Under the pieces are notes generated by a model that searched no databases, was not told the origin of the DNA, and worked only from the letters and a program-made list of their open reading frames with translations. From Microlunatus panaciterrae (lineage in GTDB: Bacteria > Actinomycetota > Actinomycetes > Propionibacteriales > Propionibacteriaceae): a stretch of DNA of 64,000 nucleotides. Shown here piece by piece: positions 31,729-64,000 of this stretch. Both the position numbers and the translations under genes were made by a program. The stretch lies in NCBI RefSeq assembly GCF_016907535.1, contig NZ_JAFBCF010000001.1, positions 620,001 to 684,000 on the forward strand. Direction: 5' to 3'. The number at the start of each line of letters is the position of its first letter. The stretch's first letter is position 1.

Positions 31729-32742
31729 TCAGCGTTCGTCCACGGGGGTGGAGTCTGCCTTCACGGCACCCCGCTGACCGAGCGGTTCCGGGGCACCCCG
31801 AGTGGTGTCCGCCACGGTCTGTTCCTCGGACTCTGCGTTGATCTCCGCCCCGAGCAGCACTGCATAGGAGGTGATCCACAACCACAGCAACAAGATGATC
31901 ACTCCGGCGAACGCACCGTAGGTCTTGGCGTAGTTGCCGAAGCTTGACACGTAGACGGAGAAGCCGACCGAGGCGATCAGCCAGAGGACCGCCGCCGCCA
32001 CCGCTCCGGTGGACACCCAGCGCATCTTCGGTGCATCGCGATCTGGCGACACCCGATAAAGAACTGCCAGGGCCACCACAACGCAGACCAGCAGCAGGAG
32101 CCAGCGCGCTGCCTCGAGCAGCCAGCGCAGCGGGCCACCGCCGACCAGGTTCTCCAGGACTGCTGGGACGACCGCCACCAGGATGATCATCACCGTCATG
32201 AAGACGATGGCCGCCACCGTCAGGCCGAGAGCCAGGGCCCGCTTCTTCACAAAGCCTCGGTCCTCGTTCTCGTCGTAGGCCGCGTTGATCGCCGTCACCA
32301 GGTTGCTGACCCCGCCGGAGGCGCTCCAGAACGCCAACAGGATCGAGACCACCAGTCCGATCCCCAACGACTGTTGCCCACTGGACGTCAGCGACTGCAG
32401 CTGCTGGGTGACCAGGTCGCGCGCCGGGCCAGGCATCGCACTCATCAGTGAGCCCACCTTGTCGGCGATGGTGGCCGGATCGGCGACGAGCCCGACCACG
32501 AGCACCAGGGCGATCATGGCCGGGAACAGCGACAAGAAGCCGTAGAACGCGACACCGGCAGCCAGCAACGGCACCTGGTCGCTCTTGGCCTCCCTCCAGC
32601 CGCGCTTCACCACCTGAAGCCACCCTCGGGCGGGTATCTGGCTGGGCTTCTCGGCTTGTCCTCCCGGTACGTCACCGGGACCGGCCTTGCTGTTCGAAGT
32701 CTTCGGGTGGGAACTCTTGGTGAGCGTCTCTTCTGCGGCCAT
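31729..32742 (-). CDS. YihY/BrkB-like inner membrane protein
   Basis: 337 residues from ATG 32742 (AAGGAG upstream; a GTG at 32763 is in frame). A polar N-tail of about 50 residues is followed by six hydrophobic helices. Family marks are DQVPLLAAGVAFYGFLSLFPAMIALVLVVGL, IGLVVSILLAFWSASGGVSNLVTAINAAYDENEDRGFVKKRALALGL and YGAFAGVIILLLWLWITSYAVLLGAEINAE. The family was once called ribonuclease BN in error; its transport role is unclear. It heads an apparent minus-strand stress cluster but has its own spacing (46 bases) from the DUF3618 gene. Confidence 0.9.
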   Translation of the reverse strand: MAAEETLTKSSHPKTSNSKAGPGDVPGGQAEKPSQIPARGWLQVVKRGWREAKSDQVPLLAAGVAFYGFLSLFPAMIALVLVVGLVADPATIADKVGSLMSAMPGPARDLVTQQLQSLTSSGQQSLGIGLVVSILLAFWSASGGVSNLVTAINAAYDENEDRGFVKKRALALGLTVAAIVFMTVMIILVAVVPAVLENLVGGGPLRWLLEAARWLLLLVCVVVALAVLYRVSPDRDAPKMRWVSTGAVAAAVLWLIASVGFSVYVSSFGNYAKTYGAFAGVIILLLWLWITSYAVLLGAEINAESEEQTVADTTRGAPEPLGQRGAVKADSTPVDER

Positions 32743-59212: not shown

Positions 59213-60053
59213 CGGGCGTCGCTGGCACCACGACCAACGGGCAATGGGTCTCCTTGAGCACGGACCGGGCAACGGATCTGGTCCAAGCACCGAAGGTGTC
59301 ACGGTGCGGACGTCCGACGATCAACACCGCCGCCTGCCGCGAGGCCTCGATGATGCTCAGGTCCGGGTCCCCAGTGGTCAGGAAGGTCTTCACCCGGATA
59401 TCGGGGTGGTCCTGCTTCCAGCCGGCCAGCACCTCCTCGATGTTGAGCCGCTGCAGGGAAAGCTCACCGGGCATCGTCCCGAGGGGCACCGCATGCAACG
59501 CGACCAGCTGCGAACCCCGCGCCTCCGCTTCGTCGAAGGCGTAGCTCAGCGCGGTCTCGGCTGGCGTGTCGCCATCGAGGGCCACCACGACGGGGCCGTA
59601 CTTCTCCGGCTCCGGGTCCCAGACCCGCGGCACGATCACCACCGGGCAGTTCGCCCTGGCCGCCACCGGGGAGGCCACGCTTCCCTCCAGCAGTCGTTCG
59701 CCCAGCGTGATGTGATGCTGGCCGAGCACGATCAGCTGAGCCCGATCGGACGCCTCCACCAGCATGATCACCGGTTCCGTCATGTGCAGCGAGCTCTGCA
59801 CGGTCACACCGGGTGGGATCACCAACTGTTCCATCACCTGCCGCATCACCTCCACCGCAGGACCACGCATGACTCTGGTCCGGTAGTCCTCACTGATCGG
59901 TTCGACGACTTCCGGTACCTGGTACGCATGCATCAGCTCCAGATCGGTCTTCCTCAGCTCTGCCTCGTGGACGGCGTACCTAGCCGCTGTCAACGCCTCC
60001 GTCGAGTCGTCAACTCCGACCACGATTTTTCCCGACGCGCTCCCGATACTCAT
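59166..60053 (-). CDS. tandem-domain universal stress protein
   Basis: 295 residues from ATG 60053 (AAGGAG upstream). First domain KIVVGVDDSTEALTAARYAVHEAELRKTDLELMHAY to LIVLGQHHITLGERLLEGSVASPVAARANCPVVIV; second domain GPVVVALDGDTPAETALSYAFDEAEARGSQLVALHAV to VLIVGRPHRDTFGAWTRSVARSVLKETHCPLVVVP. The first loop keeps the ATP-type G-x10-GS pattern. Like mycobacterial Rv2005c/Rv2623-type proteins it has a DevR-type box, about 80 bases upstream of the start. Confidence 0.92.
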   Translation of the reverse strand: MSIGSASGKIVVGVDDSTEALTAARYAVHEAELRKTDLELMHAYQVPEVVEPISEDYRTRVMRGPAVEVMRQVMEQLVIPPGVTVQSSLHMTEPVIMLVEASDRAQLIVLGQHHITLGERLLEGSVASPVAARANCPVVIVPRVWDPEPEKYGPVVVALDGDTPAETALSYAFDEAEARGSQLVALHAVPLGTMPGELSLQRLNIEEVLAGWKQDHPDIRVKTFLTTGDPDLSIIEASRQAAVLIVGRPHRDTFGAWTRSVARSVLKETHCPLVVVPATPVSEVTEGTVASSLSG

Positions 60054-60132
60054 GGTGATCTCCTTCGATCGTCTCCTTTCCACGCTGTCACAGCCGCCAC
60101 CTCGCCGATACGGCCGAAGATCACCTGGCTAT

Positions 60133-60146
60133 GGGACGAAAGTCCC
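60133..60146. promoter_or_regulatory. perfect DosR/DevR-type box
   Basis: GGGAC-GAAA-GTCCC, an exact palindromic core of the DosR consensus. It lies between the divergent Usp gene (start 60053) and the 123-residue gene (start 60241) and could serve both. Confidence 0.75.
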
Positions 60147-60240
60147 CGGTCGGCGACTGGCGGGGCACGCTCTATGCTCGGTGGGCGAGCGGCTGGCGGC
60201 TCTGGACCGCCGTCCACCGGACACGGGAGGGGTGCACGAC

Positions 60241-60612
60241 GTGAGCCAGGAGACTGTCGAGCTGGACACCGCGCTGTCGGTGGCCGCGATCGCGACCTGC
60301 TTCCGGTCGGCGCTCGAGCAGTCCGGATCCCACGTGCGCTTCGCCCGGATCCGTACCGACCCTGACGGTCAGCCCACCACCGCCGACTTCGCCGGCTCCG
60401 CCTCCGGCCGCACCCTCACCGGGCGATGGTGTGTCCAGCTCTACATCCGCGACGACGGGGCGTCCCGACATGTCGAGCTGGTAATACTGGGGTCGTCGAT
60501 GCTCGCCAAGGCCTGGCAGGGCACCAAGGGAACACACTCGTTGTCGGCCGGAAGGCTTAAGGCGGTCAGCGTGATCGACGCCCTCAAGGTTGTGCAGGGC
60601 CGTCAGAGCTGA
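60241..60612 (+). CDS. 123-residue hypothetical protein
   Basis: From GTG 60241 with GGGAGG ten bases before. Reads SQETVELDTALSVAAIATCFRSALEQSGSHVRFARIRTD, then CVQLYIRDDGASRHVELVILGSSMLAKAWQGTKGTHSLSAGRLKAVSVIDALKVV. It seems a small alpha/beta protein. I do not recognise a domain. It faces the Usp gene across a perfect DevR-type box, so it is probably a dormancy-induced protein. The frame extends upstream to 60052 but over the regulatory region. Confidence 0.7.
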   Translation: MSQETVELDTALSVAAIATCFRSALEQSGSHVRFARIRTDPDGQPTTADFAGSASGRTLTGRWCVQLYIRDDGASRHVELVILGSSMLAKAWQGTKGTHSLSAGRLKAVSVIDALKVVQGRQS

Positions 60613-60616
60613 CGTC

Positions 60617-61780
60617 TCATCGTTCTCTGATCTCGAGGTGTCCGGTGCGCCGCAACGCCCCGAACCGGAGGGACAGGTAGGCGGCGGCCGCGGCGGGGAT
60701 GGGCAGCCAGAACTCCAGCACCCGCCAGCCCACGACTCCGAGCACGGCAGCAGGCTGCGGAATGCCGAAACCCACCAGACCGGAGACCATGACCGCCTCC
60801 ACGACCCCGATACCTCCCGGGGTCAACGGCATCACAGCGAGGATGTTGCCGACACCGTAAACGGTGAGCAGCGGCCCGATCGGCACCAGCTGACCGAATG
60901 CCGCCAGCATGATCCACAGCGCCGAGGCGTCGAGGAGCCAGTTCGCCGCCGCCAACAGCAGGGCGACTGTCAGCCGTCGCGGGTCGGTGAGCATGTCGCG
61001 TACCCGGCGGGCTGCCCCGCGGGTGAAGGACTGGGCACCCTTGGCCGTCAGGAAAGGGAGACGGCGGCCGATGACGGCGGACAGCTCGACGGCACGACCC
61101 GTGTGCCGGGTCAGCACCCAGATCCCCAGCGCCGCCAGCACCAGCAGGACGAGCACCCCGATGGCCGCACTGCGGTAGTAGGGGTTGTCACCGACCGAGG
61201 TCAATGACACCGCTACACCGATCCCGAAGATGACACCCAGCATCAGGTTCACCCCGGTGGCCTCCATGGCCGCGGCCGTCAGGGCATCGCCGGCGCGAGT
61301 GCCCGTCAGCGTCAGCAGGCGGACCCGCATGGCGGCGGCGGTGGCGCCACCGGCCGGCAGCACATGGCTGAGGCCCAGGGCGGTCAGGTCGACGCCCAGC
61401 AGAATGGGATAGCGCGGCCGTCCCCGCCCCAGCAGGCACGCGGTGAGTGCACTGTAGGCGACCAGCGACGCGGCTTCGAGGGCGGTTGCGACCAGGATCA
61501 ACGGCAGCGAGACCATCCGCAGCGACGCCAGGGCCCGCTCGCCACCAGGCAGCTGCGGCACCAGCACGAACCAGATGCTCAGAGCGAGTACGACCAGGGA
61601 CAGCACTCCCTTGACCCACCAGGGCACCCGAGGCCGTCGACGGACCGGGGTCTCGTCGACTGCTTCCGCCTGGTGCTCGTCTGCCGCTGCGATGGTGTCA
61701 GCCCCTTCCGCCCAGCCGATCCCCTCATCATGCCGGTCACCTCGTCTTTCGTCAGCGCCGAATCGGCGGCTTCGACGCAA
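60617..61780 (-). CDS. lysylphosphatidylglycerol synthase/flippase-like membrane protein (UPF0104 type)
   Basis: About 390 residues with eight hydrophobic helices and no synthase domain. Family marks: LPLILVATALEAASLVAYSALTACLLGRG, LGLSHVLPAGGATAAAMRVRLL, ATGVNLMLGVIFGIGVAVS and MPLTPGGIGVVEAVMVSGLVGFGIP (the GG.G.VE motif). The start is unclear: the frame is open to 62113, where it overlaps the SDR gene; TTG 61780 gives a cytosolic tail, GTG 61627 begins just before the first helix. Possibly flips or exports a lipid-linked glycan or lipid. Confidence 0.82.
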   Translation of the reverse strand: MRRSRRFGADERRGDRHDEGIGWAEGADTIAAADEHQAEAVDETPVRRRPRVPWWVKGVLSLVVLALSIWFVLVPQLPGGERALASLRMVSLPLILVATALEAASLVAYSALTACLLGRGRPRYPILLGVDLTALGLSHVLPAGGATAAAMRVRLLTLTGTRAGDALTAAAMEATGVNLMLGVIFGIGVAVSLTSVGDNPYYRSAAIGVLVLLVLAALGIWVLTRHTGRAVELSAVIGRRLPFLTAKGAQSFTRGAARRVRDMLTDPRRLTVALLLAAANWLLDASALWIMLAAFGQLVPIGPLLTVYGVGNILAVMPLTPGGIGVVEAVMVSGLVGFGIPQPAAVLGVVGWRVLEFWLPIPAAAAAYLSLRFGALRRTGHLEIRER

Positions 61781-61884
61781 CCAGCGTGGCAGCCCATCCG
61801 GTCTGAACGGGTCAGTAGCATGTCGGCCATGTGTCGGATGAGTCCCAGCAGCCCTGACAGCCCCAACAGACGGAGATCCCTCAC

Positions 61885-62670
61885 GTGTCGCGGCTGAGCG
61901 GTGAACCCGCCTCCGCGGTGGTGACCGGTGCGGCCAACGGCATCGGCCGGGCGATTGCCGAGGAGCTGCTCGGCCGAGGCCATCTCGTGGTCGGGTTGGA
62001 CCGCGACCAGGCGGCGCTGACGACGACCCGTGACGATCTCGGTGACCGCTTCGTACCGGTGCTGGGCGACGTGTCCGAGCGGGCGGCGCATGAGGATGCC
62101 TGTGCCACGGCACAGCAGCGCGCCCGGCTCCAGGTCTGGGTCAACAATGCCGGCATCGAGAAGCCGACCAGCGCAGCGACGCTGGACGATGCCGTGATGC
62201 GGGCCATCATCGACGTCAACCTGATCGGCACCCTGCTGGGATGTTCGGTCGCCGTGGCAGCCATGCGCGAGCAGGGAGGCAGCATCGTCAACATGTCCAG
62301 CATCCACAGCCTGGTCGGCTTTCCGGAGTCCTTTGTGTATGCCTCGACCAAGGGGGGCATCGATGCGCTGACCAGGCAGCTCGCCATCGAGGAGGCGCAC
62401 CGCGGGATCCGCTGCAACGCCGTCCGTCCGGGGGCGGTCAACACTCCCCTCACCCAGTCATTCCTGGACGCGGCAGAGGACCCGGACGCGCTGCTGCGGG
62501 AGTACGCGGAGTTGCACCCGATCCAGCGGCTGATCGAACCCGTCGAGATCGCGCGGGTGGTCGCCTTCCTCGCCTCCCCGGACGCCTCCTTCATCAACGG
62601 GGAGTCCGTCACGGTCGACGGTGGAGCGACCGCCCGCTGCTTCGCCTACCCGCCTGTCGAAGGGCCCTGA
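61885..62670 (+). CDS. short-chain dehydrogenase/reductase
   Basis: 261 residues from GTG 61885. AVVTGAANGIGRAIAEELLGRGHLVVGLDR (cofactor loop), VWVNNAGIEKPTSAATL (NNAG), GSIVNMSSIHSLVGFPESFVYASTKGGIDALTRQL (Ser, Tyr-x3-Lys) and RCNAVRPGAVNTPL, ending in ASPDASFINGESVTVDGGATARC. The last residues PPVEGP are coded by the first copy of the GCCTGTCGAAG repeat, which seems to have replaced the original 3' end. Sugar or polyol dehydrogenase is likely; the following glycoside hydrolase on the other strand hints at sugar use. Confidence 0.9.
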   Translation: MSRLSGEPASAVVTGAANGIGRAIAEELLGRGHLVVGLDRDQAALTTTRDDLGDRFVPVLGDVSERAAHEDACATAQQRARLQVWVNNAGIEKPTSAATLDDAVMRAIIDVNLIGTLLGCSVAVAAMREQGGSIVNMSSIHSLVGFPESFVYASTKGGIDALTRQLAIEEAHRGIRCNAVRPGAVNTPLTQSFLDAAEDPDALLREYAELHPIQRLIEPVEIARVVAFLASPDASFINGESVTVDGGATARCFAYPPVEGP

Positions 62671-62744
62671 GCCTGTCGAAGGGACCTGCGCCTGTCGAAG
62701 GCCCCCCACACGGAGCCTGCCGAAGCGCCCTGAGCCTGTCGAAG
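62652..62744 (+). repeat. five copies of GCCTGTCGAAG-type repeat
   Basis: GCCTGTCGAAG starts at 62652, 62671, 62690 and 62734, with a variant GCCTGCCGAAG at 62715. Spacing is 19, 19, 25 and 19 bases. The first copy lies in the SDR coding end. The reverse form CTTCGACAGGC appears at 63313 and later. Such short units are often scattered through actinobacterial genomes. Confidence 0.85.
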
Positions 62745-62849
62745 GGCCCTCCCGCCCTAATCCAGATGGTTCTCTTGCCGTCCAGGGGTGGCGCGTTGGG
62801 AGAGTCGCTCAAGCACTGCGACTTCTCGCCGACCGCGGCGCCCCAAAAG

Positions 62850-63133
62850 TCGCGTTCTGTTGAGATTTTCAGCCGGGATCGGCGACATTGCCCGTCAGAA
62901 CTCGCGTTCTGTCGAGTTCTTGATCGGATCGCCGCAAATGTCGCGTTCTGTCGAGATTTCGACGCGATCCGCGACGTGGGCCCGCCAGAACTCGCGTTCT
63001 GTCGAGTTTCTGGTCGGGTCAACGCAAAAGTCGCGTTCTGTCGAGATTTCGGCCCCGGTACGCGACTTTGCCCGTCAGAACTCGCGTTCTGTCGAGTTCT
63101 TGATCGGGTAACGCAAAAGTCGCGTTCTGTCGA
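62850..63133. repeat. 90-bp-period composite repeat array (7 cores of TCGCGTTCTGTCGA)
   Basis: Cores start at 62850 (one mismatch), 62902, 62941, 62992, 63031, 63082 and 63120, so intervals alternate 52/39/51/39/51/38 and the true period is about 90 bases. Type A cores read GTCGCGTTCTGTCGAGATTT and close with CGCGAC about 30 bases later (GTCGCG/CGCGAC inverted repeat). Type B cores read CAGAACTCGCGTTCTG with arms CAGAAC/GTTCTG and GAACTC/GAGTTC. Spacers are similar between copies of the same type. No convincing gene covers it; open frames here are by-products of the 90-base (30-codon) period. Confidence 0.88.
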
Positions 63134-63285
63134 CATTTCACCCCGGGAGCCGCGACCTTGCACTGGGTGGTGGAGCGCACGAATCGGCGCGTCATCGAGC
63201 GACCCGGTCGTACTTCACGCTCCCGGTGCACGTGAGTTCAGCCATGACGCGCTGATTTTGGTTGCCGACGGGTAGCTGGTGTCGA

Positions 63286-63391
63286 GCCTGTCGAGGGGCG
63301 TTGCGAGGTGCTCTTCGACAGGCTCAGAGCACGTACAGAGGATGCTCTTCGACAGGCTCAGAGCGCGTACGAGGTGCTCTTCGACAGGCTC
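63286..63391 (-). repeat. CTTCGACAGGC-type repeat cluster, opposite orientation
   Basis: One GCCTGTCGAGG at 63286, then three copies of CTCTTCGACAGGCTC at 63311, 63345 and 63377. Copies one and three have outer arms GTGCTC/GAGCAC, so each can fold as a small hairpin. Together with 62652-62744 it brackets the 90-bp array. The interval 62671-63401 (731 bases) holds only these repeats. Confidence 0.85.
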
Positions 63392-63401
63392 CGAGCACGT
63401 C

Positions 63402-64000
63402 TCAGAGTGCAGTGAGGTGGACGAGGGTGGAGGTGCGGTCGGCGGGAAGGGGGATGCCGTCGGCGAGGAGGGTGGCACCATCGCAGTCTGAGGCGGTGGA
63501 GGCTCCCAGGTCCAACACCGTGACCCGATAGGTGCCGCTGGGGTCGAGGCCGAGGGGGCGCACCGGTTCCCAGCCACCGGCGGGGGGAAGTCGGAATGCG
63601 GCCACCACGTGCTCGTCACCGGAGGTCAGCTGGAAGGCCGGCAACCGGTGGCCCTTCTCCTCCCGCAGCGGCTGTGCGCCCAGCGGCACCAGCACTCCCC
63701 GTTCGAGGATGGGCCGGATGACGTCCTGGTAGGCGCGGACATGCTGCGCCAGCCGGTCCAGCAGGTCGGGCCGCATCTCGGTCAGACGGGCCGCGATGCC
63801 GAACCGGTGCAGCATCGCCGCCTGGACCTTGGCGTCGAACTGCTCGGCGCTGATCAGGCTGCCGGAGTAGTCGACCTTCTGGAACCGGTGCTCACCACGC
63901 CATTCACTCTGCACCCAGTGCAGGATCTGGCGCGGTGGCAGCAGCCGGGCCGCGCCCCACAAACAGGCCAGGTGGTGCTCGGTCCAGTCCGGGTCGGACA
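63402..64000 (-). CDS. probable glycoside hydrolase (alpha-galactosidase-like) C-terminal part, 5' end outside window
   Basis: About 199 codons are visible, continuing past the window edge. SDPDWTEHHLACLWGAARLLPPRQILHWVQSEWRGEHRFQ, then FDAKVQAAMLHRFGIAARLTEMRPDLLDRLAQHVRAYQDVIRPILERGVLVPLGAQPLREEKGHRLPAFQLTSGDEHVVAAFRLPPAGG, ending in a beta-sandwich-like tail. The pattern of helix bundle end plus C-terminal beta domain fits a GH36-like retaining glycosidase, but catalytic residues are outside the window. The identification is tentative. The gene's stop follows the repeat cluster. Confidence 0.5.
   Translation of the reverse strand, partial: SDPDWTEHHLACLWGAARLLPPRQILHWVQSEWRGEHRFQKVDYSGSLISAEQFDAKVQAAMLHRFGIAARLTEMRPDLLDRLAQHVRAYQDVIRPILERGVLVPLGAQPLREEKGHRLPAFQLTSGDEHVVAAFRLPPAGGWEPVRPLGLDPSGTYRVTVLDLGASTASDCDGATLLADGIPLPADRTSTLVHLTAL

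Follow-up and report, generated by a model that had tools for sequence, protein, structure and literature searches.

Tandem Repeats in Microlunatus panaciterrae as Probable Gene-Less Copies of Modules That Bracket a Vsr-Type Nuclease Gene

Introduction

Near the right edge of the window (the whole stretch of 64,000 nucleotides of Microlunatus panaciterrae DNA analyzed here), seven short palindromic cores follow one another at two alternating distances. What kind of element is this array, and how did it acquire its A-B order? An earlier note, made from the letters of this DNA, had offered three guesses: a protein-binding array, a source of structured RNA, and a non-autonomous element that grows by unequal crossing over. 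The last of these is now the best supported, a protein-binding array is less likely, and structured RNA is rejected. As judged from sequence comparisons, the array probably arose as a copy, expanded in tandem but lacking the gene, of the modules on either side of a nuclease gene, within a REPtron-like system in which a Vsr-type nuclease replaces the RAYT protein.

Results

Seven units of one repeat in two forms

The array is intergenic and sits between two convergent ORFs (Table 1). As the earlier note had held, it is noncoding: a codon-usage gene finder placed no gene across it. Seven copies of TCGCGTTCTGTCGA, the first with one mismatch, start on the forward strand at the left-hand core coordinates of Table 1. 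Their spacing of 52, 39, 51, 39, 51, and 38 bp bears out the alternation described for them, and Tandem Repeats Finder recovered the 90-bp period (3.5 copies, score 412, at 62844-63161). The flanks were likewise as claimed, odd copies standing between GTCGCG and CGCGAC (with CGGCGAC at the end of the first copy) and all three even copies carrying CAGAACTCGCGTTCTG. With up to two mismatches allowed, TCGCGTTCTGTCGA has eight matches in the window against 0.72 expected, a number reached in 0 of 100 shuffles; the eighth match, at 32036, is unrelated to the array. The two palindromes that had been described are both present, but they are really two diverged forms of one unit, one of them ~12 bp shorter. 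Read on the minus strand, A and B share the form GARAA-S-TC-R-N-CAGAACGCGA-S-TT-Y-T, followed by a linker.

Two other repeats lie close by. To the left and right of the window array, at 62652-62750 and 63304-63400, are copies of a second REP-like family (CTTCGACAGGCTCAG), which occurs at up to two mismatches in 17 of the 37 extracted repeat stretches. A third repeat, at 63182-63257, has inverted arms AATCGGCGCGTCAT and ATGACGCGCTGATT with 48 nt between them, and its motif is present in 7 of the 37 stretches.

Table 1. Features of the window array and of the nuclease locus (window coordinates unless a contig is given)
Feature	Coordinates	Strand	Remark
Seven-unit array	62838..63146	(-) reading	A units ~39 bp, B units ~51 bp
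A unit 1 core	62850..62864	(-)	one mismatch in 14-mer
B unit 1 core	62902..62916	(-)	
A unit 2 core	62941..62955	(-)	
B unit 2 core	62992..63006	(-)	
A unit 3 core	63031..63045	(-)	
B unit 3 core	63082..63096	(-)	
A unit 4 core	63120..63134	(-)	
Left neighbor ORF, 261 aa	61885..62670	(+)	putative SDR-type dehydrogenase, judged by eye
Right neighbor ORF, past window edge	63402..63998	(-)	convergent with left ORF
Nuclease gene, 313 aa from ATG	G000:C1:3573330-3574271	(+)	

A dispersed family of tandem arrays

The exact core has 46 matches in the 4.07-Mb genome (23 on each strand) against none for the reversed control, and a 17-mer with up to three mismatches finds 135 genomic places against 10 for its control. 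From these matches 37 stretches were extracted, three of which (L175 to L177) are lone matches within genes that were taken as chance and excluded. The 34 loci studied hold 168 units, counted after weak matches near a better one had been dropped, in at least 34 arrays of 1 to 8 units each; the number of arrays is a lower bound, drawn from among the matches listed. One stretch, L167, is cut at its end, and its full locus has 12 units, which enclose a gene. Rather than being a scattered singleton, the core comes in groups of at least two units at 33 of the 34 loci. All 34 arrays were placed between genes by a simple codon-usage gene finder, with 17 between tandem, 12 between convergent, and 5 between divergent genes. 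The 15-mer of this family has 73 matches in the window's genome and 0 to 2 in each of 76 relatives, and a longer form of it had no match in a contig collection that may omit near relatives.

An insertion sequence with HTH_38 and integrase-core domains, presumably of the IS30 type, interrupts one array (L179:3177-4568; G000:C1 about 1598676-1600067). Carriage by phages or plasmids was considered and rejected, phage matches being absent and seven plasmid records having weak matches.

About 24 positions of the unit are mostly fixed across the 168 units, and a linker of ~27 bp is variable. Neighbors in the same orientation lie 50 to 52 bp apart in 98 of 118 cases. The same distance is found at 10 of 12 switches from plus to minus units, the other two measuring 59 and 92 bp; a thirteenth switch spans 1059 bp and encloses a gene. 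In mixed arrays the plus units come first and the minus units follow, with the exceptions of L165, where a plus/minus pair is repeated three times, and of one weak match at L155.

Structured RNA finds no support in this family. A single 90-bp unit folds only modestly (z-scores of -1.7 and -1.9), Rfam had no match in the window at 60000-64000, and compensatory changes are absent from the core: the C/G positions 0 and 15, which would close the hairpin, pair in 61 of 168 units and are not associated (p = 0.30). This lack of association suggests that the block is recognized as double-stranded sequence rather than as a conserved RNA stem. The earlier note was right to set aside a CRISPR, since unique spacers are lacking and linkers within arrays average 0.71 identity; it was right on an ordinary REP pair as well. 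The family spans at least 34 arrays of a ~51-bp unit.

Higher-order repeats and probable local growth

Unit identity in the window array is 0.61 at lag 1, 0.85 at lag 2, and 0.57 at lag 3. The same higher-order pattern is seen at L147 (0.69, 0.93, and 0.69) and L170 (0.85, 0.95, and 0.86), and slightly at L156 and L158, while identity at lag 1 is highest or tied in the remaining 8 of the 13 arrays analyzed in detail. At L165 a two-unit alternation takes the form of plus/minus pairs. Two-unit alternation recurs at L147 and L170, but the exact 39/51 alternation was seen in the window array only. Units are more alike within arrays than between them (0.79 versus 0.70), as are linkers (0.71 versus 0.57). 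The A-B order amounts to a higher-order repeat of two units, so the array likely grew in place by unequal exchange; exchange of blocks one or two units long would leave such an identity pattern. The lag identities agree with the unequal crossing over that had been proposed.

A nuclease gene between inverted arrays

Only one pair of arrays was found to enclose a gene (G000:C1 ~3572955-3574557; L167/L178/L186). At L186, six plus units are followed by a plus-strand gene for a 313-aa protein and then by six minus units. The protein matches Pfam MTES_1575 with an E value of 1.6e-8, below that model's cut-off, and DUF559 with an E value of 5.6e-7, above that model's cut-off; its residues 41-179 match PADLOC AbiEi (E 1.6e-8). 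Among 30 homologues, MTES_1575 was matched by 29, DUF559 by 22, and AbiEi_1 by 4 at E<=0.01. The homologue profile matches the solved structures 3hrl, an endonuclease-like protein (E 1.6e-4), and 3r3p, a mobile intron protein (E 0.0027) that we take to be I-Bth0305I.

Of 90 homologues, 89 are intact, and S197, E200, R204, P213, P215, E244, G247, H250, D260, and R263 are invariant in all 89, with D233 kept in 88 (residue numbers follow the matched query, which starts six residues upstream of the ATG). E200, E244, H250, D260, and D233 are the putative catalytic residues of an EDxHD/Vsr fold.

Bracketing does not extend to every DUF559 gene. Among the five others of the window's genome, bracketing palindromes were found only at L185, so that two of the six genes, the 313-aa nuclease gene included, have them. 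The L185 gene has palindromes of its own on both sides (43 nt, E 1.1e-12).

Homologous loci carry modules of their own

A protein search found a homologue at E<=1e-10 in 201 of the 293 genomes of the order, the window's own included. We examined 90 loci (30, own included, and a further 60), taken mostly best-scoring first and not at random. The 450 bp on each side of the gene were compared with each other, swapped flanks and flanks moved out by 900 bp serving as controls. At E<=1e-4, 77 of the 90 loci had the same module to the left and right of the gene, versus 3 of 90 with swapped and 2 of 90 with shifted flanks, and the other 13 had no two-sided module; at E<=1e-6, 67 of 90 had one, versus none in either control. 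A single 15-mer with up to two mismatches occurred at least twice per side in 58 of 90 loci (1 and 0 in the controls).

The most frequent spacings between neighbors are 51, 52, and 53 bp, with 78 of 187 falling at 48-54 bp and the others varying widely. Other spacing bands also score on both sides (31-41 bp in 23 of 90 loci and 46-56 bp in 39 of 90) because whole modules are repeated; hence, it is the two-sided module with its swapped-flank controls, and not the spacing test alone, that proves the bracketing.

The 67 strongest modules have a median aligned length of 76 bp (range, 32-188), and 47 of them are self-inverted, versus 3 of 67 after shuffling. The two sides are inverted relative to each other in 37 cases and direct in 30. 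Module sequence varies by locus, and some related genomes have it in common.

In a search across the phylum, 24 of 396 genomes, the window's own among them, had a match to the nuclease at E<=1e-20, and 21 of the 28 new loci had a two-sided module, with zero in both controls. Once L314 (contig edge, overlapping flanks) had been dropped and L333 (same order) set apart, 26 usable loci outside the order were left, of which 19 have a two-sided module and 7 do not; at least one of the 19, L315, is terminator-like in look.

In genus g43, outside the order, single genomes carry many homologues of the nuclease, and their modules differ (L313, L316, L319, L321, L322, L324, L327, L336, and L337). Near the nuclease homologue at L206, there are arrays of a 29-bp repeat, a period unlike that of ~51 bp.

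Sites beside the gene and their dispersed copies

Should the arrays derive from the modules by copying, a gene-side site is expected to be dispersed in its own genome and not in relatives. Four other genomes of the genus (G019, G014, G007, and G011) were compared, and the expectation held in the first three. The G019 genome, of the same genus and with a nuclease 43% identical, contains 189 copies of its site at up to two mismatches (82 plus and 107 minus; control, 0), often 52 bp apart, and 0 to 1 copies are present in five other genomes. The site of G014 has 32 copies at up to two mismatches (control, 2); 16 are exact, and 6 of these adjoin its gene. Other members of the 20-genome set have no exact match to it and 0 to 8 matches with one or two mismatches. 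For G007, 26 copies were found at up to one mismatch, 4 of them, among those listed, adjoining its gene. The G011 genome has the same site in only 7 copies, 3 adjoining its gene; elsewhere, the site occurs once each in G012 and G015 and in none of the other 16 genomes.

In genus g27, where gene-side copies were removed by position, 40 copies were counted in 9 gene-positive genomes (E<1e-50) versus 18 in 29 others (p=1.6e-4). Two of those 29, G101 (5 copies) and G116 (4 copies), have the g27 site but no close nuclease homologue, which goes against a strict rule; the gene may have been lost there.

Discussion

A possible route from bracketing modules to gene-less arrays

From the bracketing and the dispersed sites, we infer that the nuclease mobilizes its modules. 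The AbiEi-like N-terminal part would bind the ~24-bp block, two blocks ~51 bp apart would make up one target, and the Vsr/EDxHD-type domain would nick or cut within or beside the modules. Repair or re-insertion could then spread modules without the gene, and gene-less arrays would be deletion derivatives or modules that moved separately. The 90-bp A-B pattern may have arisen when a unit lost ~12 bp and the two-unit block was subsequently amplified by unequal exchange.

The EDxHD enzyme I-Bth0305I is reported to dimerize on a target of nearly 60 bp (PMC3943268). A dimer of this kind would suit blocks ~51 bp apart and would explain why the spacing survives switches of orientation; the profile match to 3r3p is weak. 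Unlike in an EDxHD homing endonuclease, the gene here appears to lie between two whole modules rather than to split its target, phage matches are absent, and gene-less copies are plentiful.

The closest anatomical parallel is the REPtron, in which RAYT genes are flanked by REPs and REP doublets are dispersed (PMC3116915, PMC3733652). Here, too, repeats flank an enzyme gene on both sides (L186 and 77 of 90 loci of the order) and are dispersed in the same genome, weakly so in G011. Intergenic dispersal, pairs and clusters, and a lineage-specific site are further points in common with published REPtrons (PMC3116915, PMC3733652). In contrast, the enzyme is a Vsr-type nuclease and not a Y1 HUH transposase, the consensus of 168 units has no GTAG or CGTC tag, and the blocks lie ~51 bp apart in direct tandem arrays of up to 8 units in this genome. 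A search for the Y1/RAYT transposase (PF01797) had no match at E<=0.001 in the window's genome, with the control positive in 5 of 14 genomes. Since PF01797 and the tags are both absent, the system is not a member of the REPtrons, though similar in anatomy.

Taken across genomes, these findings suggest a widespread, apparently unrecognized repeat-spreading system in actinobacteria. We hold more tentatively, at slightly short of an even chance, that it is a class of selfish elements unrecognized across the phylum. In such a class, Vsr-type nucleases with an AbiEi-like part would mobilize their own long, spaced, often palindromic modules without a known transposase or recombinase, each lineage having its private site, with gene-less copies seeded and satellite-like arrays formed in some genomes.

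Alternative readings

The strong conservation of the block, and a ~51-bp spacing that is kept through switches of orientation, would also suit binding arrays that do not move. The blocks would then be operators or chromosome-organizing sites for the nuclease-like or another protein, kept by selection, and modules upstream of the gene could allow autoregulation. We regard this as unlikely: sites are private to single genomes within one genus, the genes next to an array may be tandem, convergent, or divergent, and a module is found downstream of the gene too.

A poorer prospect is that an unrelated transposase moved the arrays as MITE-like copies and that the nuclease gene is a passenger lying between two of them. 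Arrays of plus and then minus units do have inverted repeats at their ends, and an IS with an integrase-core transposase does lie inside one array. IS-moved MITEs, too, reproduce the ends of an element without the gene that its full form carries. Against this prospect stand the two-sided modules, unrelated in sequence, that accompany a single protein family (77 of 90 loci in the order, 19 of 26 outside it); moreover, the enzyme is no known transposase. At the one empty place compared, in diverged intergenic DNA, no target duplication was seen (see below).

It is quite improbable that these are passive tandem repeats of the MIRU or BOX kind, whose spread would need only recombination and gene conversion and no enzyme of its own. 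That reading would account for the higher-order repeats and the homogenization within arrays, and it leaves unexplained both the bracketing of the nuclease gene and the successful predictions in other genomes. The pneumococcal BOX is an intergenic composite whose tandem inner units vary in number (PMC3049150), and the present arrays resemble it in both respects. They differ in the association with a nuclease gene, and only a minority of them show fixed end modules. A BOX-like structure was accordingly rejected for the family as a whole: of the 37 stretches, 7 have the left hairpin motif and 8 the right one. Mycobacterial interspersed repetitive units likewise occur between genes as tandem units, comparable in length and present at dozens of sites in an actinobacterium; they are not known to have an enzyme partner.

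Least probable of all is a defense or addiction system, in which the nuclease would be a toxin or would attack foreign DNA, with the dispersed sites serving as decoys or self-marks: the AbiEi-like and Vsr/REase-like similarities would fit, but the gene is apparently single, and 26 to 189 lineage-private sites would be unusual for such a role.

Relation to the literature and significance

The DUF559/MTES_1575 literature, in the parts available, deals with Vsr-like repair, domain fusions, and a domain table, and dispersed repeats were not found there. No similar system was present among the literature matches listed; most subscription papers fall outside this coverage, so this is no proof of novelty. 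On the reading preferred here, that of modules mobilized by their nuclease, orphan interspersed repeats of actinobacteria would be linked to an enzyme, and a common uncharacterized family (201 of 293 genomes) would gain a testable job with a predictable target, the gene-side site. If true, this would add a second enzyme class to the REPtron way of life and provide a natural set of long-site nucleases with the cognate sequence beside each gene. In addition, satellite-like higher-order repeats in a bacterium allow unequal exchange to be measured.

One locus with and without the element

One homologous locus, L210, could be compared with places that lack the element. The locus was found in G226, G288 (99%), and G279 (89%), and in G203 the gene is kept and the right module is missing. 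The same two neighbors are separated by 54 bp in G373 and by 147 bp in G310. The extra segment spans from just past one neighbor to just before the other, with modules near both of its ends. Its junctions lie in diverged intergenic sequence and are not base-exact; no target duplication was seen, and because of this divergence none can be claimed, and gain and loss both fit the locus. At the junctions compared in L298 and L302, the 54-bp gap of the empty place contains a terminator-like hairpin with the stem GACGCCCCTCC, which resembles the outer stem GACGTCCCTCT of the module in the filled place, perhaps by chance.
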